NCBI GenBank assembly: GCA_030765065.1
Contig: CM060989.1
Location: 55,442,001-55,506,000, forward strand
Length of the DNA stretch: 64,000 nt
Reading direction: 5' to 3'
DNA from: Deroplatys truncata
Taxonomy: Eukaryota > Arthropoda > Insecta > Mantodea > Mantidae
Below are positions 13,811 through 64,000 of this stretch, piece after piece (within the stretch, counting starts at the first letter, position 1; the number at the start of each line of letters is the position of its first letter). The notes below the pieces were generated by a model. The model was not told the DNA's origin and did no database searches. It worked only from the letters and a program-made list of their open reading frames with translations. A program made the position numbers and the translations under genes.

Positions 13811-14683
13811 TCTGATGTGTTACACTCACATGACTTTCTCTACTCTTGTACAAACTATTTTTACAAACGCTTATTCTCCATATCCTTCATGTTAATCGAG
13901 ATATCAAGATGTTAATCTTATTGCTAATTTTCTTGTAGGTGTAAGGGGAATATATATTTACAAGGGCAAATTTGGAAATACAGTAGCCTTTAAGCATATA
14001 CATATCTCTTAATAGCTGGTTGCTATGTGAAGCACTATTCCCTTTCCCACAGATTAATACTCTTTGCATATCCAAGACAAAAAAATGAATAACGAATTCC
14101 CATTTGAGAAAATAAGTATTGAAAAATTTAAGGGAATAACAAGTAATATCTCGAAAATGGTTCACTCAACAAAAAAAATGTATATGACATAAATTGTGTA
14201 TTTTAACGCGATCTACATTTTTTGTGTAGTAAAATTTTGTTTATCTCTTATGGTTTACCAGTTATGCAAAAGTCGTTCACAATGAATACTTTTGGAGACA
14301 TTCCCAGGAAATTCAAGATATACATTTTATTTGTCATAAAAATATCTTAAACATATGCTATTTTAATCAACATCATTAGACCCATTTTTGAGAAAATTAA
14401 AATTTTCGAAAGGGTAATCTGGGGTGGGGGGATTTTCTTGAAAACCTTCGTGTTGCATCCTTGGAAGATATTGAACCTAAATACCAAGTTTGGTGTTTAT
14501 CCGACTGTTCGTTTCTGAGTTATGCTGCTCACAGACAGACACACACACGGACATGTTTCCAAAAATGCTTTTTTTGGATTCAGGGGGTCTCAAAACATGT
14601 ATTTCCGGTGAAATCTCAGTATCAAATTTTTGGGTGGAATACAATACTTCCCCTACCTACTATACGTAGTAGAGAAAGTAAAA
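13811..14683 (+). mobile_element. TCTGATG-family element, copy A
   Basis: First of more than ten copies of a ~0.87-kb repeat. It starts TCTGATGTGTTACACTCACA after an A-run. Sub-terminal inverted repeats, ACTTTCTCTACT near the left end and AGTAGAGAAAGT at the right end, match over 12 bp. A 3' hairpin can form from CTACCTACTATACGTAGTAG. Short CA repeats lie about 140 bp from the right end. Open frames within it are not consistently intact between copies, so it is probably non-coding and non-autonomous. Confidence 0.85.
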
Positions 14684-18220: not shown

Positions 18221-18916
18221 TCTGATGTGTTACACTCACATGACTTTCTCTACTCCTGTACAAACTATTTTTACAAACGCTTATTCTCCATATGCTTCAT
18301 GTTAATCGAGATATCGATATGTCAATATTATTGCTAATTTTCTTGTAGATGCAAGGGGAATATGGTAAGTTTTAAGCGATAGTCAAATATTTAAGCGCTG
18401 GTTGCTATGTGGCACATTCCATTCTCTTTGCATGTCCAGGACATAAAAAAAAATGAGTAACGAATTTGAGAAAAAGTATAAGTATTGGAAAATTTAAGGA
18501 AATAACGAGCAATACCTCGAAAACGGTTCACTCAACAAAAAAAATGTATATGACATAAATTGTGTATTGTAACGCGATCTACATCTTTTGTGCAGTAAAA
18601 TTTTGTCTATCTCTTATGGTTTACCAGTTATGCAAAAGTCGTTCAGAATGAAGAACACTTTTGGAGACATTCCCAGAAAATTCGAGATATACATTTCATT
18701 TGTCATAAAAATACCTTAAACATATGATATTTTAATCAAAATCATTAGCCATTTTTGAGAAAATTAAAATTTTCGAAAAATGTTCCATGTAAAGGGTAGT
18801 CTGGGGTGGGGGAATTTTCTTGAAAACCTTCGTGTCGCATCTCTGGAAGATACTGAACCTAAATACCAATTTTGGTGTTTATCCGACTGTTCGTTTCTGA
18901 GTTATGCTGTTCACAG

Positions 18917-18949
<33 letters not shown>

Positions 18950-19076
18950 TGTTTCCAAAAATGCTTTTTTTGGATTCAGGGAGTCTCAAAACATGTATTT
19001 CCGGTGAAATCTTGGTATTGAATTTTTGGGTCGAATGCAATACTTCCCCTACTTACTATACGTAGTACAGAAAGTA
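18221..19076 (+). mobile_element. TCTGATG-family element, copy B
   Basis: Full-length copy in the same orientation as copy A. It begins after an A-run and ends CGTAGTACAGAAAGTAAAAA, so the right sub-terminal repeat has one change. It holds a pure CA microsatellite at 18916-18947 at the position of the short CA tract in copy A. Confidence 0.85.
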
Positions 19077-23643: not shown

Positions 23644-23654
23644 CATAAATTCTG

Positions 23655-24170
23655 GAGTGTTACATACACTTTACTTTCTTTACCCACTAGTGTTTATATT
23701 TATATAAACTCTACACGCCGTTTTTACGAAAGCTTATTTTTCTACCTACTTCATGTTAATCAAGATAAACTTTCACAGAAATAGTTATATTATTGTAGGT
23801 ACAATGGGAATACAGAAGACTAATTGGTAGTAATATGTTTAAAAGCATGTGGCTATATGTGGGCCTTGAAATTCCATATTCTTTTTATATTGTGAGAAAC
23901 AACTAAATAGTACTGTGGCGATAAATTCAATCTAATATTGGAAATGGCTGATGCCACAAAAATATTATCTGAAATAAATTTTCTGTTTTAAAGAGTTCTA
24001 CAGTTTTTGTGTGGTACATTTTTTACTCTTAAAATTTAATAGTTAAATCCTTTCTGAATGAAGAGGACTTCACAACAGGCTATTCCCAGATAATTCAAGA
24101 TATATTTAGCACATAAATATCTCAAATAGATGGTATTTTAATTAAAATCTTCGTGCAGCATCTTTCTCAT
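23655..24170 (+). mobile_element. old, diverged TCTGATG-family copy C
   Basis: The order of words matches the family: GTGTTACATACACTTTACTTTC, CTTCATGTTAATCAAGATAAA, TTTTTGTGTGGTACATTTT, CTATTCCCAGATAATTCAAGATAT, TATTTTAATTAAAATC. Many substitutions separate it from the young copies and the 3' end is missing. It shows that the family is old as well as recently active. Confidence 0.65.
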
Positions 24171-28827: not shown

Positions 28828-31800
28828 TCAGTCCTTAGCCTCAGTTACAATTTGTTGCAGTTTTATCACTTCGCTAACTGTGGATGTTACAGAAGCTGCA
28901 GTCTTGTTTACAGATTTTGTTGCTGTGACACGAGTAGTGGTGGTGCTCCCGGCTTTCTTAACCCCCACCTTCCCAGTTGCATTCATTTTTGTGGTGGTCG
29001 TGCTGGTCACCGTGGATTTCACAGGTCCAGCAGTCTTCTTTGTAGCTGTGGCAGTGATGGTGCGTGAAGATGCCAATGTATTAGCAGTCTTGGTGGCATT
29101 GGTTGTGGTAGTGGTGCGATTCGATATTTGCTTGTTTGCAGTCTCCTTTACTTGTTTGTCTAGAGTCTTTGCTCTCGCTGTGGTTGTAGCCAGTGTTCCA
29201 GCAGGGCGTGGCTTGTTTGCAGTACCATTCATGGTAGTTGCTGGTTTTGGTTTAGGAGCTGTGGTAGTGGTGGTCTTAGTACCAATTTTCGTTGTGGTAG
29301 TGGTAGTTCTGGCAGCAACAGGGGCAGATGAAGGCCTCGATGGCTTTGCTGTGCTTGTTGTTGCTGGCTTCTTCGTTGCAAGCGGTTCAGAGCGTTTTGC
29401 TGCAGGTTTTACCTCGCCATTTGTAAGAGGCTTGCTTGCAGCTGAAGCAGGTCTAGGGCGAGGGGCTGGAGTTGCTGTCTTTGTTACAGCGGACAGAGGT
29501 TTGCTTGCTGGTGTAGTCGATTTAGGTTTGCTTGCTGCAGCAACGGCTGTCTTCGGGGTAGCTCGTATAGGAGTGGTGGTGGCGGTAGGGGTAGCTGATT
29601 TTCTTGGAGTTGCTGTACGAGCAGGCGGTTTCGTTGGAGAAGTCGCAGGTTTTGGAGGTCCCTTTGCTGTGGTAGTTTTAGTGGCTGGACTGGCTTTAGC
29701 AGGTGGCTTACCAGCTGGAGTTTTCTTGTCTTTTATTGTTGAAGTAGTTTTCTTTATCTCTGCTATAGGTTCTTTCTTTACTTCAACTTCTGATTTGATC
29801 TCTTCTGTTTGCTTTATCTCGGAGGCCAACACTGCTGCACCAATCGCTGCTACTCCAATTGCAGCAGCAGCAGTGGGTGCTACGATAGAAGCATCTTCTA
29901 CCTTTTCGGACTCCATCTCTACTACCTTCTCTGCCAATTTTTCAGCTGCTTCCGACAACTGCTGAGGTTCTGGGGAAACTGCGGCTAATGATTCCTGCAG
30001 TGCTTCCTCAGAAATATGTGCGGGAGTTGGTGGAGGGGTGTGCGTAAGAGCGATATCCTCTTCCAATGGGGATGTTTCACTCACAGCTGCTTCTGGTTCC
30101 AGCACCGGTACCTCTTCCAATGGTTCAGGAGATTTCATCTCGCTCGGTACAGGGCAAGGAGATTCAGACTTGATGTCAGGAACATTATCTTCAATTGGAA
30201 TAAACTCTTCCACAATTCTCTGAGGTTCTGTTGCTTCCACCTCTTCCAGAATTTTTTCTGACACCTGTGATGAACTAAAGAACTCCATAACAGCTGAAGG
30301 ACCCTCTCTGATTATCATTTCATCTTCCAATGATACTGGGGAGCTTGCTTCTCGATTTGGTTCTATGACCTCTGGTTGTGCAGATGACATGTCTAGAATG
30401 GGCAACTGTGATTCTTCAGCAAGTGGTGATATTTCTTTCTCAATGGGAACAGTCTCTGGTGTAGAGGTGGCTGTGTACAAGTCAGGTATTGGAGAACCAA
30501 CTTTTAGCGATGGAGACAAAGGAGATGACAATTTCTCATCAAGAATAAACTCTTCCTCAAGTCTGGATGTGGTTGTTTCATGTTCCAGCTCTGAGACTTT
30601 ATTTTGTTCACATTTATCTTCAACAATTCCAAATTCATCTGTACTAGGTTTTGGTTCAAAGGCCTCAAATTCATCTGTCCTAGATTTTTGTTCAAAGGCC
30701 TCAAATTCATCTGTCCTAGATTTTTGTTCAAAGGCCTCAAATTCATCTGTTCTAGATTTTTGTTCAAATTCATCTGTATGTTTTTCTTCTACAGCTTCAA
30801 ATTCAGTTACATCTACTTTCTCTTTCATTACTTCAAAGTCTGTGCTCTCCAAAGCAACTTTCTCATCCATAGCTTCAGTTTCCTTGCTTTCCTCAAAGAT
30901 ATTTTCATTTATAAGTTCAGTTTTCTTGATATCTGCGAAGTTATCACTTTCAATTTCAAATTCTTTGTTCTCCGTTTCAACACTCTTGGTTATAAATTCC
31001 AATTCATCCTGTTGTATGTTCATGTCATTCTGAACATCTAGGTTTTGTTCCCCATACTCATGTGAGGGAATATCTTCATTTTTCTCTTGGACAGGTTCTG
31101 AATCCAGCACATGGTTTAACTCAGTAGGATCAAATTCTTTAGCACTCACAGAAAGTGTCTTGATTATTTCTTCGTATGCCTGGTTTTCTTCACATAAGTT
31201 TTGTTCAAACTGTTCAGTTTCGGAAACTGCTAATGGTTTATGATCAGTCTCAAAGGTCATAGGCGGTAATGCATTGTCATCAAACTTTGTCTCTTCTGGT
31301 ATAAGTGGTGAGCTTGTTTCATCCTGTTCAAAAGATGATGTACCTTCACTCAGCTGAACCCTTTCAGGTTGTGCCTCCATCTCGGGAACCATTTCCTTGT
31401 GAACCTCAAATGACATTGGTGGCACTTCTTCCAAATTCTTCATAATGTCATTTTGTATATCATTCTCAATTAGATTAGAAAATTCTTTATCTTCAATACC
31501 AGTTTGGTCATTTTTGGAAACACTTAGAGACAAATCACTATTTGCAAATTCTTGTTCTGTGAAAGATTTGTTCATTATTGAAAATGTAGAAGCATTTTCA
31601 GTCACAGTCTTTTGCATTTCTGATCCAGAGGTCATGAGGCTGACCGAAGAGTCATCCCCAAATTCTGCTTTAGTGGACGAGAGTTCAGACAAAGTATCCA
31701 TCATTTCTTTCAAATTCTGCTGCTGCTGCTCTGTTCGCAACACATCCTTTTCTGCTTGGTAGCTAATTTCCTCTTGATCCAGGAATTCTTTGAATTCAAG

Positions 31801-32151
31801 ATTGTGAATGTTTTTCTCGGCAACATCAGATTCTTTGTAATTAGAAACCTCTTTGTTCACTAAATCTGGGAGAAAACCATCAGCCTTTGCGTTAGGAGAT
31901 GTGGGCGAGTCAGTCTCAAGGTCCATTTCACTCGGACGCAATCTCACTTCTTCCTGGAATTCATTTTGACTGGGAATACGAATGTCCTCCATAGGAACTC
32001 CTCCCTTTCGTGGGGATTCTGCCAAAAGAATGTCGTTCATTGTTGGCATCATCTGAGTGGGTGAGGGGACAAACTCTGCTGCATTGGGATTCAACTGCGA
32101 CATGCTGTCATCCACTTCTTCACCTTCTGGCTGAGCAGGTTTCTGGCAAAT
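28828..32151 (-). CDS. terminal exon of a PAM2-containing, MAP-like protein
   Basis: An uninterrupted 1107-codon frame ends at TGA (28830-28828). It begins at a splice acceptor (TTTTTGTGTGTTTGCAG, AG at 32153-32152) in phase 0. Exon residues 18-29, SQLNPNAAEFVP, are a perfect PAM2 motif, the short ligand for the MLLE domain of poly(A)-binding protein. A long acidic, Glu/Ser-rich, probably disordered region follows, with 12-residue repeats of TDEFEAFEQKSR (30630-30785). After an Ala-rich stretch (APTAAAAIGVAAIGAAVLA), the last ~300 residues are strongly basic and rich in Thr, Pro, Ala and Lys, like microtubule-binding tails. A relative of the insect 205-kDa microtubule-associated protein is a reasonable guess, not proven. 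No catalytic domain is visible. Confidence 0.85.
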   Translation of the reverse strand: MCQKPAQPEGEEVDDSMSQLNPNAAEFVPSPTQMMPTMNDILLAESPRKGGVPMEDIRIPSQNEFQEEVRLRPSEMDLETDSPTSPNAKADGFLPDLVNKEVSNYKESDVAEKNIHNLEFKEFLDQEEISYQAEKDVLRTEQQQQNLKEMMDTLSELSSTKAEFGDDSSVSLMTSGSEMQKTVTENASTFSIMNKSFTEQEFANSDLSLSVSKNDQTGIEDKEFSNLIENDIQNDIMKNLEEVPPMSFEVHKEMVPEMEAQPERVQLSEGTSSFEQDETSSPLIPEETKFDDNALPPMTFETDHKPLAVSETEQFEQNLCEENQAYEEIIKTLSVSAKEFDPTELNHVLDSEPVQEKNEDIPSHEYGEQNLDVQNDMNIQQDELEFITKSVETENKEFEIESDNFADIKKTELINENIFEESKETEAMDEKVALESTDFEVMKEKVDVTEFEAVEEKHTDEFEQKSRTDEFEAFEQKSRTDEFEAFEQKSRTDEFEAFEPKPSTDEFGIVEDKCEQNKVSELEHETTTSRLEEEFILDEKLSSPLSPSLKVGSPIPDLYTATSTPETVPIEKEISPLAEESQLPILDMSSAQPEVIEPNREASSPVSLEDEMIIREGPSAVMEFFSSSQVSEKILEEVEATEPQRIVEEFIPIEDNVPDIKSESPCPVPSEMKSPEPLEEVPVLEPEAAVSETSPLEEDIALTHTPPPTPAHISEEALQESLAAVSPEPQQLSEAAEKLAEKVVEMESEKVEDASIVAPTAAAAIGVAAIGAAVLASEIKQTEEIKSEVEVKKEPIAEIKKTTSTIKDKKTPAGKPPAKASPATKTTTAKGPPKPATSPTKPPARTATPRKSATPTATTTPIRATPKTAVAAASKPKSTTPASKPLSAVTKTATPAPRPRPASAASKPLTNGEVKPAAKRSEPLATKKPATTSTAKPSRPSSAPVAARTTTTTTKIGTKTTTTTAPKPKPATTMNGTANKPRPAGTLATTTARAKTLDKQVKETANKQISNRTTTTTNATKTANTLASSRTITATATKKTAGPVKSTVTSTTTTKMNATGKVGVKKAGSTTTTRVTATKSVNKTAASVTSTVSEVIKLQQIVTEAKD
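30625..30785 (-). repeat. 36-bp in-frame coding repeat
   Basis: Three to four near-identical 36-bp units encode TDEFEAFEQKSR and variants (the last reads FEPKPSTDEFG). The flanking sequence has looser versions of the same acidic FE words. This suggests recent expansion by replication slippage within the acidic region of the host protein. Confidence 0.85.
32065..32100 (-). other. PAM2 motif coding segment
   Basis: Encodes SQLNPNAAEFVP. The PAM2 consensus is a Leu-Asn-x-x-Ala-x-x-Phe-x-Pro core, and every key position is present, including the Phe that enters the MLLE pocket. The family role is docking to cytoplasmic poly(A)-binding protein (as in PAIP2, Ataxin-2, Tob). Binding by this protein is inferred. 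Confidence 0.85.
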
Positions 32152-32271
32152 CTGCAAACACACAAAAACATACTATATAGACTGTAATAAAAGAAGCTAT
32201 TTCAAAAGTTTCAGTTAACTCAACAGAAACTTTATAACTAGAACTTAAATAAATCAAACAAAGGGGTTAAG

Positions 32272-34200
32272 ACAAGGGTGTAAATTAAGTCCTGTGCTTT
32301 TTATCTGTTCATAGATGATATACTCACTGAGATAGGGAAAAATAGTCTGTCAGCAATTAATAATTTAAGAATCCCAGGGCTATTATTTGCACATGATTTA
32401 GTAGTAGAATCCATCTCGATAATTGGGCTAAAGCAATCTTTGCAGTAAATAGATAACTATTGTGAAGAATGGAACTTGAGAGTTAACCAGAAGAAGACTC
32501 AAATTATAGTTTTTAAAAAAGGGACAAAATTGAGCAAGTATGAGGAAAGGAGATGTGTTACACTCACATGAATTTCTCTACTCTTGTACAAACTATTTTT
32601 ACAAATGCTTATTCTCCATCTACTTCATGATAATCGAGATAAACATTTGCAGACTATCTAATTGCTAATTTTCTTGTAGATGTAAGAGGAATATATATTT
32701 ACAAGGGCAATATAGAAATACAGTAGCCTTTAAGCACATCTCTTAATAGCTGGTTACTAGGTGCAGCACCATTCTCTTTGCCACAGATTAATACTCTTTT
32801 CATATCCAAGACAAAAAAATGAATAATGAATTGTGTATTTTAACGCAATCTACATTTTTTGTGTAGTAAAATTTTGTCTATCTTTTATGGTTTACCAGTT
32901 ATGCAAAAGTCGTTTACAATGAAAAGTACTTTTGGAGACATTCCCAGAAAATTCAAGATATACATTTTATTTGTCATGAAAATATCTTAAATATATGATA
33001 TTTTAATCAAAATTGAGAGCCATTTTTGAGAAAAATAAAATTTTCGAAAAATGTTCCATGTAAAGGGTAATCTGGGGTGGGGGGATTTTCTTGAAAACCT
33101 TCGTGTCGCATCTCTGGAAGATGGTGTTTATCCGACTGTTCATTTATGAGTTATGCTGTTCAGACACACACGGACATGTTTCCAAAAATGCTTTTTTGGA
33201 TTCAGGGGCTCTCAAAACATGTATTTCCGGTGAAATCTCGGTATCAAATTTTTGGGTGGAATACAATACTTCCCCTACTTACTATACGTAGTAGAGAAAG
33301 TAAAAATAGGTGGTTAGTGAATGTGTATATTTAGGGTTTAAAATTGATGGGGGTGGGAAATGGGAGAAACAGAAGAAATTGACTGTAGCAAAAGGGAAGG
33401 GAGCATTGGCAGCGGTTAAGGATATAAATACAAGTTACCGGACATAAATGTAAATTGGATGGAAAAAATACATAATATGGTAGTTGGAGCTGAAATATGG
33501 GGACTGGATGGTGGATGGGAAGTGGTGGATAAAGTACACAGGATGTTTTGTAGAGAATTGCTAGGTTTACCAAATGCAACTAAAGGAAGTTGCTCAAATT
33601 GAATTAGGAAGAGTGGGAAGGAAAGGTATGATTATGGAGAGAGTCAAATACTGCCATAGATGAAAGCAATTTAAGACAATGCCTGGATTTCCAGGAAAAG
33701 AATTTAAGGAATATTGGATGGAGTTACAGTATACAAACTATATTAAAGAAAAATGGGCTGGGCGATATCTGGAGAATGAGAGAAAATAATGTAAATAGGT
33801 TATGGAAAGAAGTTAGGAGATTCGAAGATATACAAATACAAGAGTTGTTTAGGAATATAGGGGATAAAAGATCACTAAAATCATATGTACAAATAAAAAA
33901 TACATGGGAAAGAGAAGGATATGTGGATAAACTGAATAAAGAACAAAGAGAGTATTGCTTGGGTTCAAGCGGGCATATGGAGGTAAGGGATGAGAAAAGG
34001 TTTCCAACAGAATGTGGTTCAATATGTGGAGGGAAGGAAGATTTGGAACATATAGTGTTTGAATGTAAAGGGGCAGAGCTTTGGAGGAAAGAGTGTTTAA
34101 GTGAGAAATTCTTTAAATTAGACAGAAAAGTAGCTTTAAGCTTTTTAGTAAAGAGAGGAAGAAGACAGGTGGGTATTTAACTAAAGTTAGGAAGAAACGG
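32272..34200 (+). mobile_element. non-LTR retrotransposon (family A), copy 2, interrupted
   Basis: The reverse transcriptase remnant begins before the catalytic box (LFYLFIDDILTEIGKNSLSA, GLLFAHDLVVESIS; FADD altered to FAHD) and runs to FKKGTKLSKYE at about 32545. It resumes after a TCTGATG insertion at about 33307 (KWEKQKK, EIWGLDGGWEV, RRFEDIQIQELF) and ends with CGGKEDLEHIVFECKGAELW, a Cys/His cluster. It aligns along its length with 19650-20860. It lies in the large intron of the host gene, in antisense orientation. Not active. Confidence 0.8.
32551..33306 (+). mobile_element. TCTGATG-family element, copy D, inside a LINE
   Basis: Begins AGATGTGTTACACTCACATG (first bases altered) and ends GTAGTAGAGAAAGTAAAAA. 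It lacks about 130 bp internally compared with copy A (the region around 32828-32830) and some of the CA region. It splits the family-A LINE at 32272-34200, so it is younger than that LINE. Confidence 0.85.
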
Positions 34201-36041: not shown

Positions 36042-36930
36042 TCTGATGTGTTACACTCACATGACTTTCTCTACTCTTGTACAATCTATTTTTACAAATG
36101 CCTATTCTCCATATGCTTCATGTTAATCGAGATATCGAGATGTCAATCTTATTGGTAATTTTCTTGTAGATGCAAGGGGAATATGGTAGCTTTTAAGCGA
36201 TAGTCAAATATTTTAACGCTGGTTGCTATGTGGCGCATTCCATTCTCTTTGCATGTCCAGGACAAAAAAAATGAATAACGAATTTGAGAAAAAGTATAAG
36301 TATTGGAAAATTTAAGGAAATAACAAGCAATATCTCGAAAACGGTTCACTCTACAAAAGAAATGTATATGACATAAGTTGTATATTTTAACGCGATCTAC
36401 ATTTTTTGTGTAGTAACATTTTGTCTATCTCTTATGGTTTAACAGTTATGCAAAAGTCGTTCACAGTGAAGGATACTTTTGGAGACATTCCCAGAAAATT
36501 CGAGATATACATTTCATTTCACATGACATTATCTTAAACATATGATATTTTCATCAAAATTGTTAAGAGCCATTTTTGAGAAAATTAAAATTTTCGAAAA
36601 ATCTTCCATGTAAAGGGTAGTCTGGGGTGGGGGGATTTTCTTGAAAACCTTCGTGTCGCATCTCTGGAAGATACTGAACCTAAATACCAAGTTTGGTGCT
36701 TATCCGACTGTTCGTTTTTGAGTTATGCTGTTCACACACAAACACACCACACACACCCACACCCACACCCACACCCACACCCACACACCCACACGGACGG
36801 ACGGACGTGTTTCCAAAAATGCTTTTTTTGGATTCAGGTCTCAAAACATGTATTTCCGGTGAAATCTCGGTATCAAATTTTTGGGTGGAATGCAATACTT
36901 CCCCTACTTACTATACGTAGTAGAGAAAGT
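36042..36930 (+). mobile_element. TCTGATG-family element, copy E
   Basis: Full-length copy after an A-run, ending GTAGTAGAGAAAGTAAAAA. Its microsatellite has changed from pure CA to a CACCCA-type repeat (36733-36793). It lies in the host-gene intron, antisense to it. Confidence 0.85.
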
Positions 36931-37024: not shown

Positions 37025-38370
37025 CTGGTTCTAATCGGTAAAGTGTCCCATTATAGCAGCTTTCACTTCATCAAATTTCCTTCCCCGAAGATCTTTCTGC
37101 AGTTTGGAGGAGAAGGCAGTAATCACTTGGGGCTAGATCTGGACCGTAGAGTGGGTGGTCAATCTCTTGGAAGCCATATACCTTTATTGCAGCCATGTGC
37201 ATTGGCGCATTGTCGTGGAGAAGAGCACCACTTAACAACCCAAATTAAATTGAGTTTTATTTATGGACGCTCAACTACTATGGTCCTTAGCATCCCATTC
37301 CATATTGGGTGTGAAAGACCGGAAATTTTGTTCAGAGTCCTTTATCAGGTTTGAGGTTCTTTTATGTGCCATAAATTTACAAAACTGGACCACCGGAAGC
37401 CATGCTAAGGATTTTTATGCCTGAAAAAAATCCATCGCCCTCTGCCAGGTTTGAATCCTCGACCTCAGGAACTAGAGGCTAGCATGGTAACCACTACACC
37501 ACGGAGGGCAACGTAACAACCTTCCTCGCCTCTTTTGTTTGATGGAGTCGTGCAATTTGTACAAAAGTGAAACATAATATTGTGTGTTCACAGTGATATT
37601 CCTTTCTTTGAAATCAACAATGGGAATTCCTCTAGAATCCCAGAAGATTGCTGCCTGACCTTTTGTGGAATGAATGACCATCTTCTTTGGTGGACCTTCA
37701 CCTGGTTTATGCCATTCAAGAGATTCTCTTTTGGACAGATCATAAAGAACCATAGTTTCATCCCATGTAACAATAGATTCCAGTACTTCTTTCTGGTTGC
37801 CACAGCAAAGCTCCAAAAACTTGGTGCAAGAAGCCACACACTGCTCCTTCCGAACTGCAGAGAGAAGTCTGGATACCCATCTTGCACTGACTTTTATCAT
37901 GTGCAAAGTGATCATGAATGATCTGGAAAACAGTTGAAAACATTGCTGAAATTTTCTTGAATTTCAGCACCCTGTCACTCAGCACCTCACCTTAAACGAT
38001 AGCAATGGTTTCCTCAAGTCACCAGCTCAACCAACATGTGGATCATCATCGATACTGTCTCTGCCCAGACCATTCCCTTCGCTGCGCAACATGAAGGGGA
38101 AGCATCACCATAACCACTATCCAAGCAGCATTTTATTTCAGCTGGTGCAAGCCCTTCTTTTGTCAGGAGCTTAATCACTGCTGATACTCAATTTTATCCA
38201 TTTTAGCAGCACGGTATGCAACATCTTACTCATACGGGAACTACCACTCAACTGAGGCTAGTAGCAGGCTGAAATGCATCCTGACAGATGTTGCTAGCAC
38301 CTCCCCAATTCATTTAAGTTTTGCGCTAATTTTCAGGGTCAGGTCAAAAACTTATGGAACCACCCTCGTA
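37025..38370 (-). pseudogene. near full-length mariner relic, split by a SINE
   Basis: The minus-strand transposase starts at an ATG at 38201 (MDKIEYQ), with a degraded helix-turn-helix region. It then shows KVSARWVSRLLSAV, VTWDETMVLYD (first catalytic Asp, about 37765), IKQKRRGRLL, and beyond the SINE HDNAPMH (second Asp) and PDLAPSDYCL (third Asp, about 37115). The right end GTTCCATAAGTTTTTGACCT resembles a mariner terminal repeat. Several frameshifts and stops are present. It lies in the host-gene intron. Confidence 0.85.
37241..37513 (-). mobile_element. tRNA-derived SINE, copy 3, with 8-bp target duplication
   Basis: A 273-bp minus-strand SINE. The head is at the right (GTAACCACTACACCACGGAG is the inverted tRNA-like start) and the tail AAAACTCAATTT at the left. 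It is flanked by TAACAACC at 37233-37240 and 37514-37521. Removing the SINE and one duplicate makes the mariner frame continuous (GRLL-SGALLHDNAPMH), which fixes both boundaries. Confidence 0.9.
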
Positions 38371-38710: not shown

Positions 38711-38989
38711 TCTGATGTGTTACACTCACATGACTTTCTCTACTCTTGTACAAACTATTTTTACAAATGCTTATTCTCCATCTACTTCATCTTAATCAAG
38801 ATAAACATTTGCAGAGTCTATCTTATTGCTAATTTTCTTGTAGATGTAAGGGGAATATATACTTACAAGGGCAATATAGAAATACAGTAGCCTTTAAGCA
38901 CATACATATCTCTTAATAGCTGGTTGCTAGGTGCAGCACCATTCCCTTTCCCACAGATTAATACTCTTTGCATATCCAAGACAAAAAAA
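38711..38989 (+). mobile_element. TCTGATG copy F (outer), 5' part
   Basis: The first ~280 bp of a copy of the same subtype as copy A (TAATAGCTGGTTGCTAGG, CCCACAGATTAATACTC). It breaks off in the A-run at CCAAGACAAAAAAA, where copy F-inner begins. Its continuation is at 39878-40485. Confidence 0.85.
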
Positions 38990-39685
38990 TCTGATGTGTT
39001 ACACTCACATGACTTTCTCTACTCTTGTACAATCTATTTTTACAAACGCCTATTCCCCATATGCTTTATGTTAATCGAGATATCGAGATGTCAATCTTAT
39101 TGCTAATTTTCTTGTAGATGCAAGGGGAATATGGTAGCTTTTAAGCGATGGTCAAATATTTTAACGCTGGTTGCTATGCGGCGCATTCCTTTCTCTTTGC
39201 AAGTCCAGGACATAAAAAAATGAATAACGAATTTGAGAAAAAGTATAAGTATTGGAAAATTTAAGGGAATAACAAGCAATATCTCGAAAACGGTTCACTC
39301 AACAAAAGAAATGTATATGACATAAGTTGTGTATTTTAACGAGATCTACATTTTTTGTGTAGTAAAATTTTGTCTATCTCTTATGGTTTACCAGTTACGC
39401 AAAAGTCGTTCACAATGAAGAATACTTTTGGAGACATTCCCAGAGAATTCGAGATATACATTTCATTTCTCATGACATTATCTTAAACATATGATATTTT
39501 AATCAAAATCGTTAGAGCCATTTTTGAGAAAATTAAAATTTTCGAAAAATGCTCCATGTAAAGGGTAGTCTGGGGTGGGGGCATTTTCTTGAAAACCTTC
39601 ATGTCGCATCTCTGGAAGATACTGAACCTAAATACCAAGTTTGGTGTTTATCCGACTGTTCGTTTTTGAGTTATGCTGTTCACAG

Positions 39686-39719
<34 letters not shown>

Positions 39720-39872
39720 ACACACACACAGACACACACACGGACATGTTTCCAAAAATGCTTTTTTTGGATTCAGGAGGTCTCAAAACATGTATTTCCG
39801 GTGAAATCTCGGTATCGAATTTTTGGGTGGAATGCAATACTTCCCCTACTTACTATACGTAGTAGAGAAAGT
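38990..39872 (+). mobile_element. TCTGATG copy F (inner), nested in F outer
   Basis: Complete copy with both sub-terminal repeats and a CA microsatellite at about 39683-39747. It sits exactly in an A-run of the outer copy: outer sequence GACAAAAAAA lies to its left and TGAGTAACGAATTCCGATTTG to its right. This is the continuous order seen in copy A at 14080-14110. Confidence 0.9.
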
Positions 39873-39877
39873 AAAAA

Positions 39878-40485
39878 TGAGTAACGAATTCCGATTTGAG
39901 AAAATAAGTATTGAAAAATTTAAGGGAATAACAAGCAATATCTCGAAAATGGTTCATTCAACAAAACAAATTGACATGACATAAATTGTGTATTTTAATG
40001 CGATCTACATTTTTTGTGTAGTAAAATTTTGTCAATCTCTTATGGTTTACTAGTTATGCAAAAGTCGTTCACAATGAAGAATACTTTTGGAGACATTCCC
40101 AGAAAATTCAAGATATACATTTTATTTGTCATGAAAATATCTTAAACATATGATATTTTAATCAATATCGTTACAGCCATTTTTGAGAAAATTAAAATTT
40201 TCGAAAAATGTTCCAGGTAAAGGGTAATCTGGGGTGGGGGGATTTTCTTGAAAACCTTGGTGTCGCATCTCTGGAAGATACTGAACCTAAATACCAAGTT
40301 TGGTGTTTATCCGACTGTTCGTTTCTGAGTTATGCTGTACACAGACACACACACAGACATGTTTCCAAAAATTCTTTTTTTGGGTTCAGGGGGTCTTTAA
40401 ACATGTATTTCCGGTGAAATCTCGGTATCGAATTTTTGGGTGGAATACAATACTTCCCCTACTTACTATACATAGTAGAGAAAGT
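39878..40485 (+). mobile_element. TCTGATG copy F (outer), 3' part
   Basis: Continues from 38989 with TGAGTAACGAATTCCGATTTG and runs to ACATAGTAGAGAAAGTGAAAA. Together with 38711-38989 it makes one complete element of about 0.89 kb. Confidence 0.85.
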
Positions 40486-42489: not shown

Positions 42490-43060
42490 TTTTACTTTCT
42501 CTATTGCATACCTATAGTAATGATGTATTCCACCCAAACATCTGATAGGTTTTATTGCAAAATACATGTTTTGAGTTTCCCTGAAATCCAAAGAGTATTT
42601 TCTGTGTGAGAGAAGAGCATAAATAAAAAATGAAATGCCTGGTAAATACTGAACTTGGTATTTAAGCTCAGCATCTTCAAAGAAGAGAACGATTTTCTTC
42701 TAACACCGAACTATGTTTAACAAAAAAAAACATGTTTATTTTTTATTTTCTTAAAAATGGCTCTAACCATTTTGATTAAAATACAATGCATATTTAGAGT
42801 TTTTGGTAAATAGCCTGTGAAGTCCCCTTACTTTGAATGAATTTGGTATACTGATAACTTTTGAATGTAACACATAAGATACAAAAAATTTAGATCTCTG
42901 GGAAACACAGAATTTACTTAAAATAAACGGCTCCAACCATTTCCCGGATATCCAATATTATTGGTTTGAGTTTTTCAATACTTTTGTAATTTTTAAAGTG
43001 CTGTCACAATTCAGTTGTTTCTTACATCATGCAGAGTATGGAATTTGAGGTTAGCATAAA
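42490..43060 (-). mobile_element. old TCTGATG-family copy, minus strand
   Basis: Starts TTTACTTTCTCTATTGCATAC (inverted 3' end). It then follows the family order inverted: ATACATGTTTTGAG, AAATACTGAACTTGGTATTTA, AAAATGGCTCTAACCATTTTG, GTGAAGTCCCC, with many changes. The 5' end is missing. Confidence 0.65.
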
Positions 43061-43124
43061 GCGAACTAAAACACTTTACTATGGAACACATAGGCATACC
43101 TTTATTTTTTTTTTTTTTTTTAAT

Positions 43125-43225
43125 TCAAGGAGACCCATAGCATGCACCTTCAATGAGTATAATGTTTTTGGGTGAAATACAATATTTCCTCTACCTACTA
43201 GGTATGTGATAAAGAAAGTAGAGAG
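43125..43225 (+). mobile_element. old TCTGATG-family 3' fragment
   Basis: TTTTGGGTGAAATACAATATTTCC, CTACCTACTAGGTATG and AAGAAAGTAGAGAGG resemble the last 100 bp of the family. It is short and diverged. Confidence 0.45.
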
Positions 43226-49299: not shown

Positions 49300-50645
49300 A
49301 CCTTAACTCACTTTTTGTTATTAATGATATCATGCTTTTTAAAAAAAAAAGAAGCCTCGATTATGATTGAACCCATTTGCAAGTTGATCATGAGAAAACT
49401 TAAAAAAAGATGTAAACAAGAATATTTCAAAAACGGACAAAGCTACAAAACATTTGACATTTCGATGAGCTCTACATTTCTCTACGGTATGTTTTTGCAT
49501 AATTCTTGCAGTTTACCAGTTATACAAAATTATACAACATTCATTCAGAATGATAAGTACTTAACAGGCTATTCAGAAGAAATTTTAAGACACATTTTAT
49601 GCTCACGCGAATCTCTATGGTATTTCAATAAAAAAATCTGATGTGTTACACTCACATGACTCTCTCTACTCTTGTACAAACTATTTTTACAACGCTTATT
49701 CTCCATATGCTTCATGTTAATCGAGATATCAATCCTATAGCTAATTTTCTTGTAGATACAAGGGGAATTTGGTAGCTTATAAGCGATAGTCAAATCTTTT
49801 AAGCGCTGGTTGCTATGTGGCGCATTCCATTCTCTTTGCATGTCCAGGACATAAAAAAATGAATAACGAATTTGAGAAAAAGTATAAGTATTGGAAAATT
49901 TAAGGGAATAACAAGCAATATCTCGAAAATGGTTCACTCAACAAAAAAAAATGTATATGACAAATTGTGTTATCTTAACGCGATCTACATTTTTTGTGTA
50001 GTAAAATTTTGTCTATCTCTTATGGTTTACCAGTTATGCAAAAGTCGTTCACAATGAATACTTTTGGAGACATTCCCAGAAAATTCGACATACACATTTC
50101 ATTTGTCATGAAAATATCTTAAACATATATTTTAATCAAAATCGTTAGACATTCTTGAGAAAATTAAAATTTTCGAAAAATGTTCCATGTAAAGAGTAAT
50201 CTGGGATCGGGGGGGATTTTCTTGAAAACCTTTGTGCCGCATCTCTGGAAGATACTGAACCTAAATACCAAGTTTGGTGTTTATCCGACTGTTCGTTTCT
50301 GAGTTATGCTGTTCACAGACACAGACATGTTTCTAAAAAGGCTTTTTTTTGGATTCAGGGGGTCTCAAAACATATATTTCCGGTGAAATCTCGGTATCGA
50401 ATTTTTGGGTGGAATACAATACTTCCCCTACTTTCTATACGTAGTGGAGAAAGTAATACTTTAAGAGCTATTTTTGAGAAAACACAAAAATAACTTACTT
50501 AATGTCAGTATGAAATTTGGGCTAAACATTTTGGGTTCAGAAGACCTCAAGACATGTTTCAGTTTAGATCTCGATTTTACACAATTTTTGGGTGGAATAC
50601 AATGCTGCTTCTGCACACTATGCCTAGGTAGGAGAAAATAATGCT
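49300..50645 (+). mobile_element. old TCTGATG copy H (outer), split by a young copy
   Basis: 49300-49636 and 50455-50645 together follow the family order with many changes. To the left are CTCTACATTTCTCTACGGTA, GTTTACCAGTTATACAAAAT and CAGGCTATTCAGAAG. To the right are GAGCTATTTTTGAGAAAA, GTTCAGAAGACCTCAAGACA and TTTTTGGGTGGAATACAATG. A much less diverged copy (49637-50454) separates them. Confidence 0.75.
49637..50454 (+). mobile_element. TCTGATG copy H (inner)
   Basis: Young copy beginning after AATAAAAAAA and ending GTAGTGGAGAAAGTAA. The CA tract is reduced to a few units. It is inserted in the older family member at 49300-50645. Confidence 0.85.
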
Positions 50646-53409: not shown

Positions 53410-54235
53410 CAAGACCTTAACTTTTTTGCTTCCTCTGCATAGTTCATAGTCGGCAGAAAAGATATTGCATTCCCAAAAACTCGATACCGATATTTCAACG
53501 GAAATACACGTTTGAGGCACCTCCAATCCAAAATTATTTTTAGAAAAATTCCCATGTGTGTCTTTGAACAGCATGTCGTCCTCCGCGGTGTAGTGGTTAT
53601 CATGCTAGCCTCTAGTTCCCGAGGTCGCGGGTTCAAACCCCGTGGAGGGCGATGGATTTTTTCGGCGTAAAAATCCTTAGCATTGCTTCCTTTGGAAGGG
53701 AAGAAAAGCCGATGGCCCCCCACATTTACGGCACGTAAAAGAGCCTCAAGCTTGATAGAGGCATCTGAGCAAATTTCCGGTCTTTCACGCCCAATATAGA
53801 ATAGTACGCCAAGGACCAAAGTAGTTTAAGAGCATCTATAAATAATTTTTTTTAACAGCATAAGTAGCTCAAGATTTAAGGAAATTTCCATACCCAAACT
53901 ATTCGTTACACGGAAAACGTTTACAAAATGTTGATTTTCTCGATAGTGCCTCTAATGATGTATGTTAAGATATTGTCATGACAAATGAAATGTACATATG
54001 TCATTTTCTTGGGGTAGCCTCTGAAGTACTTCATTCTGAATAACATTCTGTAATTGGTAAACCGTAAGAAATGCACACAATCTTACTACGCAACAAATGT
54101 AGATCTCGTTGAAGTGCACAATTTTTTTTTGGGGGGGGGGGGAGGTTACCATTTCCAATGTTCCTTGTTATTCGTTTTGAATTTTCAAACTCTCATACTT
54201 CTCAACAGGCAAGCCATTCGTTTTTTACTTTCTCT
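53410..54235 (-). mobile_element. old TCTGATG copy I (minus), split by a SINE
   Basis: Inverted family order on both sides of the SINE. To the left: TTTTTGCTTCCTCTGCATAG, CTCGATACCGATATTTCAAC, GGAAATACACGTTTGAGG. To the right: AAATGTTGATTTTCTCGATA, GTAATTGGTAAACCGTAAGA, ACAAATGTAGATCTCGTTGA. Strongly diverged from young copies. Confidence 0.7.
53575..53853 (+). mobile_element. tRNA-derived SINE, copy 4, best-preserved head
   Basis: A 279-bp element with the clearest tRNA-like head: GTAGTGGTTATCATG (box A zone), GGTCGCGGGTTCAAACCCC (box B). The body has GGCGATGGATTTTTTCGG, CCTCAAGCTTGATAGAGG and TCTTTCACGCCCAATATAG. It is flanked by AACAGCAT at 53567-53574 and 53854-53861, an 8-bp target duplication inside the old TCTGATG copy I. 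Confidence 0.9.
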
Positions 54236-54285
54236 ACTACGGATAGTAAGTAGGGGAAGCATTATATTCCACCCAAAAAATTCTG
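54222..54285 (-). mobile_element. TCTGATG 3'-end fragment, minus strand
   Basis: TTTTTACTTTCTCTACTACG and AGTAGGGGAAGCATTATATT are the inverted last ~60 bp of the family. The fragment stops in CACCCAAAAAAT, where copy J begins in plus orientation: a further self-insertion at an A-run. Confidence 0.75.
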
Positions 54286-54985
54286 TGTTACACTCACATG
54301 ACTTTCTCTACTCTTGTACAAACTATTTTTACAAACGCTTATTCTCCATCTACTTCATGTTAATCGAGATGTTAATCTTATTGCTAATTTTCTTGTAGGT
54401 GCAAGGGGAATTGCTAGGCTTTAAGCGATAGTCAAATATTTTAAGAGCTGGTGGCTATGTGGAGTATTCCATTCTCTTTGCATTACCAAGACAAAAAAAA
54501 AAAAAAATTAATAACGAATTTGAGAAAAAGTATAAGTATTGGAAAATTTAAGGGAATAGCAAGCAATATCTCGAAAATGGTTCACTAAAAAAAAATGTAT
54601 ACGACATAAATTTTATATTTTAACGCGATCTACATTTATTGTGTAGTAAAATTTTATCTATCTCTTATGGTTTACCAGTTATGCAAAAGCCGTTCACAAT
54701 GAAGAATACTTTTGGAGACATTCCCAGAAAATTCGAGATAATTCATTTGTCATGAAAATATCTTAAACATATGGTATTTTTATTCAAAATCGTTAGCCAT
54801 TTTGAGAAAATTAAAGTTTTCGAAAAATGTTCCATGTAAAGGGTAATCTGGGGTGGGGGGATTTTCTTGAAAACTTTCGTGTCGCATCTCTGGAAGATAC
54901 TGAACCTAAATATCAAGTTTGGTGTTTATCCGACTGTTCGTTTCTGAGTTATGCTGTTCACAGACACACACACATGTTTCCATGT
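54286..54985 (+). mobile_element. TCTGATG copy J, 3'-truncated
   Basis: Starts TTCTGTGTTACACTCACATG and follows the family to CACACACACATGTTTCCATG. It then jumps into mariner-like sequence at about 54986. The last ~130 bp of the element are lost. Confidence 0.8.
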
Positions 54986-55885
54986 AACTTAAAACACGAC
55001 AAACCCACTAACCCTGGAAGAATTAAAACAAAATATACGCCAGGGAATTGCCAGCATTTCTCAACGTGAACTACGAGTGATGGATAGTTTCTTAAAGAGG
55101 TGCCAAAAATGTATGGACAACAACGGTGGCCAGTTTCAGCATCTCCTTTCATAAAGTTGGTAAGTAAAGCCTTTAAAAGTAGCTTTAAAAATCTGATGTG
55201 TTACACTCACATGACTTTCTCTACTCTTGTACAAACTATTTTTACAAACGCTTATTCTCCATATGCTTCATGTTAATCGAGATATCGAGATGTCAATCTT
55301 ATTGCTAATTTTCTTGTAGATGCAAGGGGAATATGGTAGGTTTTAAGCGATAGTCAAATCTTTTAACGCTGGTTGCTATGTGGCGCATTCCATTCTCTTT
55401 GCATGTCCAGGACATAAAAAAAATGAAAAACGAATTTGAGAAAGAGTATAAGTATTGGAAAATTTAAGGAAATAACAAGCAATATCTCGAAAACGGTTCA
55501 CTCAACAAAAGAAATGTATATGACATAAGTTGTGTATTTTAACGCGATCTACATTTTTTGTGTAGTAACATTTTGTCTATCTCTTATGGTTTACCAGTTA
55601 TGCAAAAGTCGTTCACAATGAAGAATACTTTTGGAGACATTCCCGGAAAATTCAAGATATACATTTCATTTCTCATGACATTATCTTAAACATATGATAT
55701 TTTAATCAAAATCGTTAGCCATTTTTGAGAAAATTAAAATTTTCGAAAAATGTTCCATGTAAAGGGTAGTCTGGGGTGGGGGGATTTTCTTGAAAACCTT
55801 CGTGTCGCATCTCTGGAAGATACTGAACCTAAATACCAAGTTTGGTGTTTATCCGACTGTTCGTTTTTGAGTTATACTGTTCACA

Positions 55886-55928
<43 letters not shown>

Positions 55929-56198
55929 ACACACACGGACACACACACACGGACATGTTTCCAAAAATGCTTTTTTTGGATTCAGGAGGTCTCAAAACAT
56001 GTATTTCCGGCGAAATCTCGGTATCGAATTTTTGGGTGGAATGCAATACTTCCCCTACTTACTATACGTAGTAGAGAAAGTAAAAATGTATGGTTTCATC
56101 CGCGCGTTTCTATGATAGCGGCAGACGGCAACGTGCGCCGAGGACGCGGACAGGAAAAACACCGCGCATCCGGTTCGTAGTTTTTTAGCTCTCTCTGT
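54986..56198 (+). mobile_element. CAG-TIR mariner-like copy, split by TCTGATG copy K
   Basis: 54986-55191 encodes the C-terminal transposase tail (words CATTTCTCAACGTGAACTAC, AAGAGGTGCCAAAAATGTAT, CAGTTTCAGCATCTCCTTTC) and enters the terminal repeat. After copy K, 56087-56198 carries the rest of the terminal repeat (GGTTTCATCC..., GAGGACGCGGACAGGAAAAA, AGCTCTCTCTG) with TA following. The 5' part is missing. Confidence 0.85.
55192..56081 (+). mobile_element. TCTGATG copy K, with AAAAA on both sides
   Basis: Complete 890-bp copy with both sub-terminal repeats and CA microsatellites around 55886-55950. AAAAA occurs at 55187-55191 and 56082-56086. Removing the copy and one A-run restores CTTTAAAAATGTATGGTTTC, the order found in the uninterrupted mariner-like element at about 61205-61232. 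This makes it the best locus for defining the element's ends. Confidence 0.9.
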
Positions 56199-60755: not shown

Positions 60756-61330
60756 CAGGGAGAGCCAAAAGATTACGAACCGGCTGCGCGGTGTTTTTCC
60801 TGTCCGCGTCCTCTGCGCTAGTTTCCGTCTGCCGCTATCATAAAAAGGCGTGGATGAAACCATACAACATTTTTAAAATTACTTTTACAGGCTTTGCTTG
60901 ACTTTATGAAAGTCTGTTTGAGGACAGAATTATTATTAGAGATTTGTGAACCCCTCGGTCCCCCGATCTAACCTCCTACAATTCCTTTCTCTGGGGTAAC
61001 TTAAAACAAAGTATACAAGAACAAACCCCCACACCCTGGAAGAATTAAAACAAAATATTCGCTAGGAAACTGGCAGCATTTCTCAACGTGAACTACAGCG
61101 AGTGATGGATAGTTTCCTAAAGAGGTGCCAAAAATGTATGGACAACGACGGTGGCCAGTTTCAGCATCTCCTTTCATAAAGTTGGTAAGTATAGGCTTTA
61201 AAGGTAGTTTTAAAAATGTTGTATGCTTTCATCCGCGTCTTTCTATGATAGCGGCAAACAGTAACGAGCGCCGAGGGCGCAGACAGGAAAAACACCGCGT
61301 AGCCCGTCCGTGGCTTTTTGGTTCTTCCTG
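60756..61330 (+). mobile_element. CAG-TIR mariner-like copy, internally deleted
   Basis: Starts CAGGGAGAGCCAAAAG after TA and ends GGCTTTTTGGTTCTTCCTG; the following bases are CA rather than TA. A left terminal repeat is followed directly by the 3' part of the transposase (GGTCCCCCGATCTAA for SPDL, then CAGCATTTCTCAACGTGAAC, and AAGAGGTGCCAAAAATGTAT) and the right terminal repeat. It serves as the uninterrupted reference for the split copy at 54986-56198. Confidence 0.85.
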
Positions 61331-61589: not shown

Positions 61590-62401
61590 ACTTTCTCTAC
61601 TACGTATAGTAAGTAGGGGAAGTATTGTATTCCAATCAAAAATTCAATACCGAGATTTCACCGGAAATACATGTTTTGAGGCCCCCTGAATACAAAAAAA
61701 AAAATCATTTTTGGAAACATGTCCGTGTGTGTCTGAACAGCAAAACTCGGAAACTAACAGTCGGATGGAACACCAAACTTGGTATTTAGGTTCAGTATCT
61801 TTCAGAGATGCGACACGAAGGTTTTCAAGAAAATCCCTCCACCCCAGATTACCCTTTACATGGAACTTTTCGAAAATTTTAATTTTCTCAGAAATGGCTA
61901 ATGATTTTGATTAAAATATCACATGTTTAAGATATTTTCATGACAAATAAAATGTATATCTGAATTTTCTGGGAATGTCTCCTAAAGTATTCTTCATTGT
62001 GAACGACTTTTCCATAACTGGTAAACCATAAGAGATAGACAAAATTTTACTACACAAAAAATGTAGATCGCCCTAAAATGCACAATTTGTCATTTTTGTT
62101 GTTGAGTGAACCATTTTCGAGATATTGCTTGTTATTCTCTTAAATTTTCCAATGCTTATCCTTTTCTCAAATTCGTTATTCATTTTTTTTGTCCTGGTAA
62201 TGCAAGGAGAATGGAATACTCCACATAGCAACCAGTTCTTAAAATATTTGACTATCGCTTAAAGTCTACCAATTCCCCTTGCACCTACAAGAAAATTAGC
62301 AATAAGATTAACATCTCGATTAACATGAAGCATATGGAGAATAAGCGTTTATAAAAATAGTTTGTACAAGAGTAGAGAGTCATGTGAGTGTGGAACACAT
62401 A
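61590..62401 (-). mobile_element. TCTGATG copy L, minus strand
   Basis: The inverted family sequence runs from ACTTTCTCTACTACGTATAG to GAGTCATGTGAGTGTGGAAC. Nearly full length, with a short CA tract (TGTCCGTGTGTGTCTG). The only well-preserved copy in minus orientation. Confidence 0.85.
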
Positions 62402-62940: not shown

Positions 62941-63298
62941 TCTGATGTGTTGTACTCGCATGACCTTCTCTACTCTTGTACAAACGCTTATTTTCCATCT
63001 GCTAAACATTTGCAGAAACATCTTATTGCTAATTTTCTTGTAGATGCAAGGGGAATATGGTAGGCTTTAAGCGATAGTCAAATCTTTTAAGAGCTGGTTG
63101 CTATGTGGAGCATTCCATTCTCTTTGCATTACCAGGACATAAAAAACGAATAACGAATTCTCATTTGAGAAAAAGTATAAGTATTGGTAAATTCAAACAA
63201 ATAACAAGGAGTATCTCTGAAATGGCCCACTCGACCAAAAGAGGTGACAATTTGTGTATTTTAACGAGATCTACATTTTTTGTGTAGTAAAATTGTAC

Positions 63299-63335
<37 letters not shown>

Positions 63336-63772
63336 CAGTTATGCAAAAGTCATTCAGAATGAAGAGGATTGCTGGGAACATCCCCAGAAAATTCAAGATA
63401 TACATTTCATTTGTCATGAAAATATCTTAAACGTATGATATTTTAATCAAAATCGTTAACCATTTTTGAAAAAATTAAAATTTTCGAAAAATGTTCCATG
63501 TAGTAAAGGGTAATGTGGGGTGGGGGGATTTTCTTGAAAACCTTCGTGTCGCATCTCTGGAAGATCCTGAACGTAAGTACCAAGTTTGGTATGTATCCAA
63601 CTGTTCGTTTCTGAGTTATGCTGTTCGCACACACACGGACATGTTTCCAAAAATGCTTTTTTTTGGATTCAGGGGGTCTCAAAACATGTATTTCCGGTGA
63701 AATCTCTGTATCGAATTTTTGGGTGGAATGCAATGCTTCCCCTACTTACCTACTATACGTAGTAGAGAAAGT
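62941..63772 (+). mobile_element. TCTGATG copy M, with CT microsatellite
   Basis: Starts TCTGATGTGTTGTACTCGCA and ends ACGTAGTAGAGAAAGT. It has a pure CT tract at about 63299-63333 where other copies have TATCTCTTATGGTTT, and only a short CA tract. It carries subtype words (AACAAGGAGTATCTCTGAAA, GAAGAGGATTGCTGGGA) shared with the next copy. Confidence 0.85.
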
Positions 63773-63785
63773 AAAAAAAAGAAGA

Positions 63786-64000
63786 AAAAGGAATAACGAA
63801 TTCCCAATTTGAGAAAAAGTATAAGCATTGGAAAATTCAAACAAATAACAAGGAGTATCTCTGAAATGGCCCACTCGACAAAAAGAGGTGACAAATTGTG
63901 TATTTTAACGAGATCTACATTTTTTGTGTAGTAAAATTTTATTCTCTCTCTTACGGTTTACCAGTTATGCAAAAGTCATTCAGAATGATGAGGATTGCTG
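63786..64000 (+). mobile_element. TCTGATG copy N, partial, runs off the window
   Basis: Begins in the middle of the family (GAATAACGAATTCCCAATTTG) right after copy M. It shares M's private words (AACAAGGAGTATCTCTGAAA), so M and N look like products of a local tandem duplication. Confidence 0.8.

Follow-up and report, generated by a model that had tools for sequence, protein, structure and literature searches.

The question raised by this locus is to which kind of mobile element copy K belongs, an 890-bp repeat in the window (the whole 64,000-base stretch of Deroplatys truncata DNA analysed here), and which enzyme may move it. We concluded, with a probability of roughly 0.96, that K is a non-autonomous element of the Helitron2/Helentron group (the HINE, DINE-1 kind) for which a Rep/helicase partner is the likely enzyme. 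Within this known kind its copies probably make up a new family, the literature having been compared by words and not by sequence. The features of a HINE that were found are the lack of coding capacity, asymmetric 12-bp repeats, a 5' hairpin, T-rich targets and a longer partner. The initial annotation, made from the sequence alone, had guessed a Helentron-associated (DINE-1-like) element, which was right as to kind, with the orientation of the element reversed. What was an unclassified repeat is now a family whose ends and strand are known and for which a likely enzyme can be named.

The ends of K (55192-56081) are exact, and K recurs in the window, as first described: with K as query against the window, BLAST returned 24 pieces, K itself counted, and a profile built from nine copies gave 23 matches, old relatives among them (Table 1). 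The K family accounts for 11,528 of the 64,000 bases (18%). The proposal that excision of K together with five A restores an uninterrupted repeat was also borne out, 170 of 196 columns being identical to 61105-61300 after this removal; the same alignment without removing the five A gave 170 identities in 198 columns. The repeat that K interrupts also occurs intact in the window, in six copies, and there the site reads A5 in five cases and A4 in one. Since the empty site is A5 in five of six copies and A5 stands on both sides of K, about five A/T were added by the insertion. Exactly recurring ends, a T-run target and some five additional T are thus shown by the sequence itself.

Table 1. Positions in the window of copy K with its parts, and of the other family copies and relatives.
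Feature	Position	Strand	Method or remark
Copy K, complete, very probably a non-autonomous Helentron-type element	55192-56081	-	5' end 56081, 3' end 55192
A5 flank at the 5' end of K (T5 immediately upstream on the element strand)	56082-56086	.
5' asymmetric terminal inverted repeat ACTTTCTCTACT	56070-56081	-	0 bp to 5' end
Downstream arm AGTAGGGGAAGT of the 5' hairpin	56048-56059	-	pairs 12/12 (two G-T) with 5' repeat
(CA)n-type microsatellite	55884-55957	.	about 125-200 bases from the 5' end of K
Internal A8/T8 run	55416-55423	.	commonest self-insertion site in other copies; model position about 605-612
3' repeat AGTAGAGAAAGT	55214-55225	-	22 bp short of 3' end
3' hairpin ATGTG-AGTGTAA-CACAT	55196-55212	-	adjoins 3' repeat; weak as fold
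A5 flank on the 3' side of K (T5 on the element strand)	55187-55191	.
Copy A, complete	13811-14679	-	BLAST, profile
Copy B, complete	18221-19075	-	BLAST, profile
Older diverged relative, 3' hairpin with a different stem sequence	23652-24151	-
Copy C, internal deletion	32552-33301	-	BLAST, profile
Copy D, complete	36042-36930	-	BLAST, profile
Copy E, split at the internal T-run by complete copy E2 (38990-39872)	38711-40485	-
Older diverged relative; inverted 5' end of another at 43114-43219	42494-43082	+
Copy F, flanked by older-relative pieces 49391-49632 and 50529-50635	49637-50454	-
Copy J, without 5' end	54284-54982	-	BLAST, profile
Copy L, without the last few bases of the 3' end	61590-62400	+	BLAST, profile
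Copy M, fragment of another copy (63784-63999) on one side	62941-63772	-

On the basis of family anatomy, K runs on the minus strand. Read on that strand, it starts with ACTTTCTCTACT-ACGTATAGTA-AGTAGGGGAAGT and finishes with AGTAGAGAAAGT-C-ATGTG-AGTGTAA-CACAT-CAGA, and every one of its first 12 bases has a pairing partner among positions 23-34. The two 12-bp repeats, which had been described as sub-terminal, are exact and asymmetric in position: the left-hand one is indeed sub-terminal, 22 bp inside the 3' end, and the right-hand one is terminal, 0 bp from the 5' end. Because the strand had been reversed, the hairpin and the microsatellite placed by the initial annotation at the 3' end are actually at the 5' end; both are present, the hairpin beside the right-hand repeat being the 5' hairpin, and the candidate hairpin of the true 3' end adjoins the other repeat. 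The reported absence of a transposase from K agrees with our results, as the sole stop-to-stop frame of at least 120 aa is one of 125 aa (55738-56115), without a Pfam match.

To follow the constancy of this anatomy we took 45 near-complete copies, of which seven lie in the window itself and 38 elsewhere in its genome (G000); as these were the best matches to K, with motifs located allowing up to three changes, their constancy characterises the family and does not speak for selection. The two 12-bp repeats pair at 12/12 in 36 of the 45 copies, at 11/12 in eight and at 10/12 in one, the 5' hairpin pairs at 12/12 in 39 and at 11/12 in six, and the 3' stem has 5/5 pairs in 43, four in one and one in one. 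When 200,000 segments of 890 bases were drawn at random from the window, a 12/12 repeat in the layout of K occurred in 38 and a 12/12 5' hairpin in 118, rates that overstate chance because the window contains the family itself and simple repeats. As a DNA fold, the 5' hairpin of K had a z of -2.35 (5 of 200 shuffles equally good) and the 3' hairpin a z of -0.19 (81 of 200); the full 5' hairpin was the best fold in none of the four diverged 5' ends that were folded (z -0.50 to +0.64). Pairs in the 5' helix were counted over 15 5' ends, 12 of them distinct and older relatives included. In the distinct ends 85.6% of cells were paired, against 43-55% with the partner slid, a percentage near that of shuffles (49 of 500 as high), and three pairs had changed on both sides, against a shuffle mean of 0.9 (7 of 500 as high), with a slide of -3 likewise giving three. 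These pair counts mildly favour the 5' helix. For the 3' helix (12 3' ends, eight distinct), 90% of cells were paired, against 2.5-60% when slid, a percentage matched by 62 of 500 shuffles. A single pair had both of its bases replaced (T-A became A-T, in the relative at 23652-24151), a count that 117 of 500 shuffles reached.

According to the description in PMC4067079, HINE elements carry microsatellites, a palindrome at the 3' end and subterminal repeats of 12-15 bp, and they insert in T-rich targets with a variable T number, the variable flanking Ts being counted as part of the element. K resembles the HINE/DINE-1 elements of that account in being non-coding, in its putative 3' palindrome, in its microsatellite, T-rich target and variable flanking Ts, and in sharing inverted repeats of the 12-15 bp size with a longer Helentron partner; it differs in that its 5' repeat stands at the terminus, and the likeness is one of description, not of sequence. 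For Helitron2, PMC3627910 describes asymmetric repeats of 8-15 bp, of which the 5' one lies 0-2 bp from the end and forms a 5' hairpin, and the 3' one lies 20-30 bp from the end with a 3' hairpin immediately after it. K agrees with this account in repeat sizes, in 5' and 3' spacing, in the 5' hairpin and in the place of the putative 3' hairpin; it differs in that its partner matches an endonuclease, a domain that marks the Helentron subgroup.

The ends also bear on whether K could be a canonical Helitron (Helitron1) whose plus strand begins with TC. The plus strand of K does start with TCTGATG, and many copies of the family lie immediately after an A and before Ts; however, the plus strand ends in AAGT and the minus strand in CAGA, neither of which is CTRR, the minus strand begins with ACTTTC after a T-run and not with TC, and a 5'-end hairpin and inverted repeats are present. 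With a Helentron-type GSP motif and an endonuclease match in the partner also speaking against it, a Helitron1 identity appears extremely improbable.

In the genome search, the best 40 of 1767 candidates were scored and the 39 loci besides K were fetched with flanks, both ends being placed in 38 of them (the exception was L015). Insertion in A-runs, as first noted at the A5 site of K, holds for the family, T coming first on the element strand in 55 of 58 3' flanks, with five to nine T in 51 of those 55. On the other side, the number of T before the 5' repeat among 54 distinct 5' ends (loci and window) was five in 28, two in seven, six in seven, seven in four, eight in three, four in three, one in one and zero in one; at least TT was present in 52, and T3 was absent among the 54. 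Seven ends belong to the TT class, those of copy F in the window and of L009, L010, L013, L026, L030 and L041, and in each of them the bases ahead of ACTTTC are TATT or TAATT; an A precedes every one of them as well as 22 of the 28 T5 ends. The TT and T5 classes are intermixed on a tree built from 45 copies, TT needing seven changes for seven rows. An inherited T number was rejected because the two classes do not cluster, and the number appears to have been fixed at insertion or lost at the tips.

These flanks bear on the alternative raised in the initial annotation, a TIR transposon with A-run duplication, which we took in the form of a cut-and-paste element (a MITE) with about 5 bp of its A/T-run target duplicated. 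In most copies the five or so added T look like a 5-bp duplication, which weighs against our reading of K since rolling-circle models do not predict one; the frequency of T5 ahead of the 5' repeat and the change of the K site from A5 to A5+A5 both fit such a duplication. The internal T-run fits it as well. Self-insertion is frequent, copies lying inside other copies mostly at this run, which is T7 or T8 in 43 of 50 uninterrupted cases; once interrupted, its left side is T5 in 9 of 11 and its right side T6 or T7 in 9 of 12, from which it follows that about five T were added per insertion, as at K. The five added T may be either element-borne, the view taken in PMC4067079, or a duplication of the T-run, the two looking alike in pure T-runs. 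The TT class speaks against a duplication fixed at 5 bp, which would not leave only TT after an A, and its seven ends form no clade. Moreover, the repeats of K are not both terminal, and what the longer element with almost identical ends codes for is a Rep/helicase and not a DDE transposase. On this asymmetry and on the partner's enzyme the TIR alternative loses, and we regard it as very improbable. A fixed duplication of anything other than an A-run, which according to the initial annotation would speak against the Helentron assignment, was absent among the copies seen.

Family sequence lies on both flanks in 18 of 38 copies, on one flank in seven and on neither in 13. A preference of the family for itself beyond the target motif is not needed, because 127 of 325 sites of the form A followed by T5+ (39%) in 40 sampled stretches already lie inside the family, so that the target motif alone explains family-flanked copies. 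Seven tail-to-head junctions of the form CAGA-spacer-ACTTTC were seen (L010, L014, L021, L027, L044 twice and L045). Rolling-circle concatemers were considered and rejected for such arrangements, as in five adjacent pairs (L010, L014, L027, the right side of L044, and L045) the neighbour ranked only 18th-31st of 38 by identity; in L039, a sixth tail-to-head pair with a 30-bp spacer, it ranked 6th of 38. With these low identity ranks, adjacent pairs look like separate insertions. Pieces of the family that face each other were also observed, in the window at 42494-43219 and 54227-54982, one of which ends in an inverted 5' end, and at L016, L032, L042 and L073. They fit opposite-strand insertion into an A-run near element position 110.

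The initial annotation had recommended a search for a longer relative with the same ends, and in the genome of the window (G000; 4,289,915,091 bases in 818 contigs) such a relative, its ends almost those of K, was found to encode Rep, a PIF1 helicase and an endonuclease domain. At least 152 matches to PF14214 (Helitron_like_N) are present in this genome (150 scored of 291 candidates), many of them in open frames of 1,000-2,500 codons, and one partner locus on C5 was read across 17 kb (L068, L069). Its 2345-codon frame (L068 2064-9098) matches Herpes_teg_N, DUF6570, Helitron_like_N (E 1.2e-27) and PIF1 (E 1.9e-28). The Rep motif reads GSPHEH, and the S between G and P of this motif is given in PMC4067079 as a mark of Helentrons. 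The helicase part is matched by 19 solved sequences, mostly PIF1-type helicases, Helraiser among them. The scan of the whole protein, at E 0.01, listed no endonuclease; the last 257 residues scanned alone matched Exo_endo_phos_2 (E 2.1e-6, 28.0 bits, just above the cut-off of 27.4), and by sequence no solved relative of this C-terminal part was found. A deubiquitinase domain of herpes-tegument type has been described in other Helentrons (PMC9741609), and these resemble the partner in an N-terminal Herpes_teg_N match and a C-terminal endonuclease match, in both cases sequence matches only. Between its deubiquitinase-like and Rep parts the L068 protein contains a lengthy array of KRNKEYMEQAREDEEYK-type repeats that are nearly identical to one another, and the length of the open frame varies among partner copies.

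The L068 frame is bounded by the 5' end ACTTTCTCTACTACG... and the 3' end GTGTAGAGAAAGT-TATGTGAATGTAACACATCAGA, with T-runs outside. Of its first 110 bases 106 are identical to K, of its last 34 bases 31 and of its last 60 bases 38, and about 690 bp of its 5' part are K-like (87%). By the rules given in PMC4067079, 11 bp of identical repeats for a family and 80% identity for a subfamily, the agreement of the partner and K in 11 bp of both repeats places them in one family, and the last 60 bases, falling below 80%, place the partner in another subfamily than K. Ten more partner copies, with frames of 1,218-2,408 codons around the Rep match, were studied by fetching their ends as 20 stretches. 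All ten share the 3' end of L068, with one base different in L089, and the exact 3' end of K was found in none of the eleven partner copies examined. End patterns of 20-34 bases, scanned against viral contigs and genome contigs, gave no match.

In nine of the eleven partner copies a truncated K-type element, cut at the internal T-run, is fused in front of the partner. The junction, ctcaaatgcgttattcatttt then ACTTTC, is identical in all nine; the outer flanks vary from copy to copy, several of them being the family's own T-run, and L082 and L074 are arranged differently. Across the junction region (550-990 bp), L070, L072, L078 and L088 are 99.8-99.9% identical to L068, followed by L086 (99.5%), L084 (99.3%), L080 (97.7%) and L076 (96.5%). 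Of the outer K-type piece of L068, 185 bp were read, and a partner starting at L068 position 186 had been considered; the composite reading replaced it after the junction comparison. The loci show an enzyme-bearing relative with nearly the ends of K, near-identical relatives elsewhere and composite units. Most simply, a partner would have landed inside a K-type copy, after which the two would have been mobilised together, as a unit reaching from the outer 5' end to the 3' end of the partner. The near identity of the partner copies suggests recent or present activity. The FoHeli composites of Fusarium oxysporum, as reported in PMC5148889, resemble the partner in self-insertion and in having two 5' ends and one 3' end, and are explained there by a start at the outer 5' end and a stop at the first 3' end; the extra 5' piece of FoHeli is typically shorter than 200 bp, whereas here it is about 660 bp long and K-type.

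Rep/helicase elements might also sit near K-type ends for no other reason than having inserted into K copies, with something else moving K, and several partner copies do lie inside K copies at the T-run, hence the K sequence that flanks them. Their ends speak differently, since all eleven partner copies looked at carry their own 3' end, slightly unlike that of K, the similarity stops at the T-run just past this end in L071, L073, L079 and L083, and in nine copies, L068 among them, the partner body is preceded by an inner 5' end ACTTTCTCTACTACG, which in L084 deviates at one base. We consider simple nesting a very unlikely explanation and retain the reading in which the partner probably serves K.

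A plausible course of transposition can then be outlined. A full-length Helentron of this genome would supply the Rep/helicase/endonuclease protein, which would recognise the shared ends and nick the T-run ahead of the 5' repeat; one strand would be peeled off toward the 3' end, the peeling would halt at the 3' repeat and hairpin, and the peeled strand would go into a T-run, usually immediately after A. In this outline it is the partner protein that would move K, the strand and the order of steps are presumed, and the intermediate may be single-stranded or circular. We further put forward, as a tentative suggestion somewhat short of even odds, that the family supplies the landing sites for its further copies and thereby sustains its expansion, an estimated two fifths of all sites of A followed by T5+ in this genome being inside its copies, and that the partner now spreads mainly as a fusion using the 5' end of its own non-autonomous parasite, host and parasite sharing one start signal. 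In PMC4067079 the reason why the number of flanking Ts varies was left to biochemistry; the T5 and TT flank states and the composite partner offer testable material on start choice in Helentrons and on T-number variation.

The abundance of the family was estimated from 40 stretches of 2 kb (80,000 bases), 20 at round and 20 at random coordinates. Family sequence made up 16,751 bases or 21% (bootstrap 13-30%; round set 24%, random set 17%), with a family match in 19 of the 40 stretches, and a shuffled copy of the first 20 stretches contained no family sequence. When only sequence at least 85% identical to any of 38 copies was counted, the share was 10.7%. The 19 5' ends in the 80 kb, those of old relatives among them, would correspond to about one million 5' ends genome-wide, with counting error giving a range of about 0.6-1.6 million. 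BLAST gave no match to the partner body in the 80-kb sample or the window. At about a fifth of a 4.3-Gb genome, this is a large case of Helentron expansion. Helitrons are reported to make up 28% of the house fly genome (PMC6327564) and 7-20% of grasshopper repeatomes (PMC7486953), and by these published figures the share of the K family is high, not without parallel.

Several minor observations were made alongside. On the minus strand at 53565-53655, a stretch that looks tRNA-derived by eye (GGTTTGAACCCGCGACC) lies inside an old family relative and is perhaps a SINE; ARAGORN reported no tRNA in the window. A minus-strand fragment at 37472-37960, away from K, matches Transposase_1 (mariner DDE). 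COX1-like matches occur on many chromosomes of the genome (C1-C16), some of them in rows on C16, and are probably nuclear mitochondrial inserts. A 1114-codon open frame on the minus strand at 28828-32172, with a PAM2 motif (Pfam PF07145) and repetitive stretches, is likely part of a large host gene.
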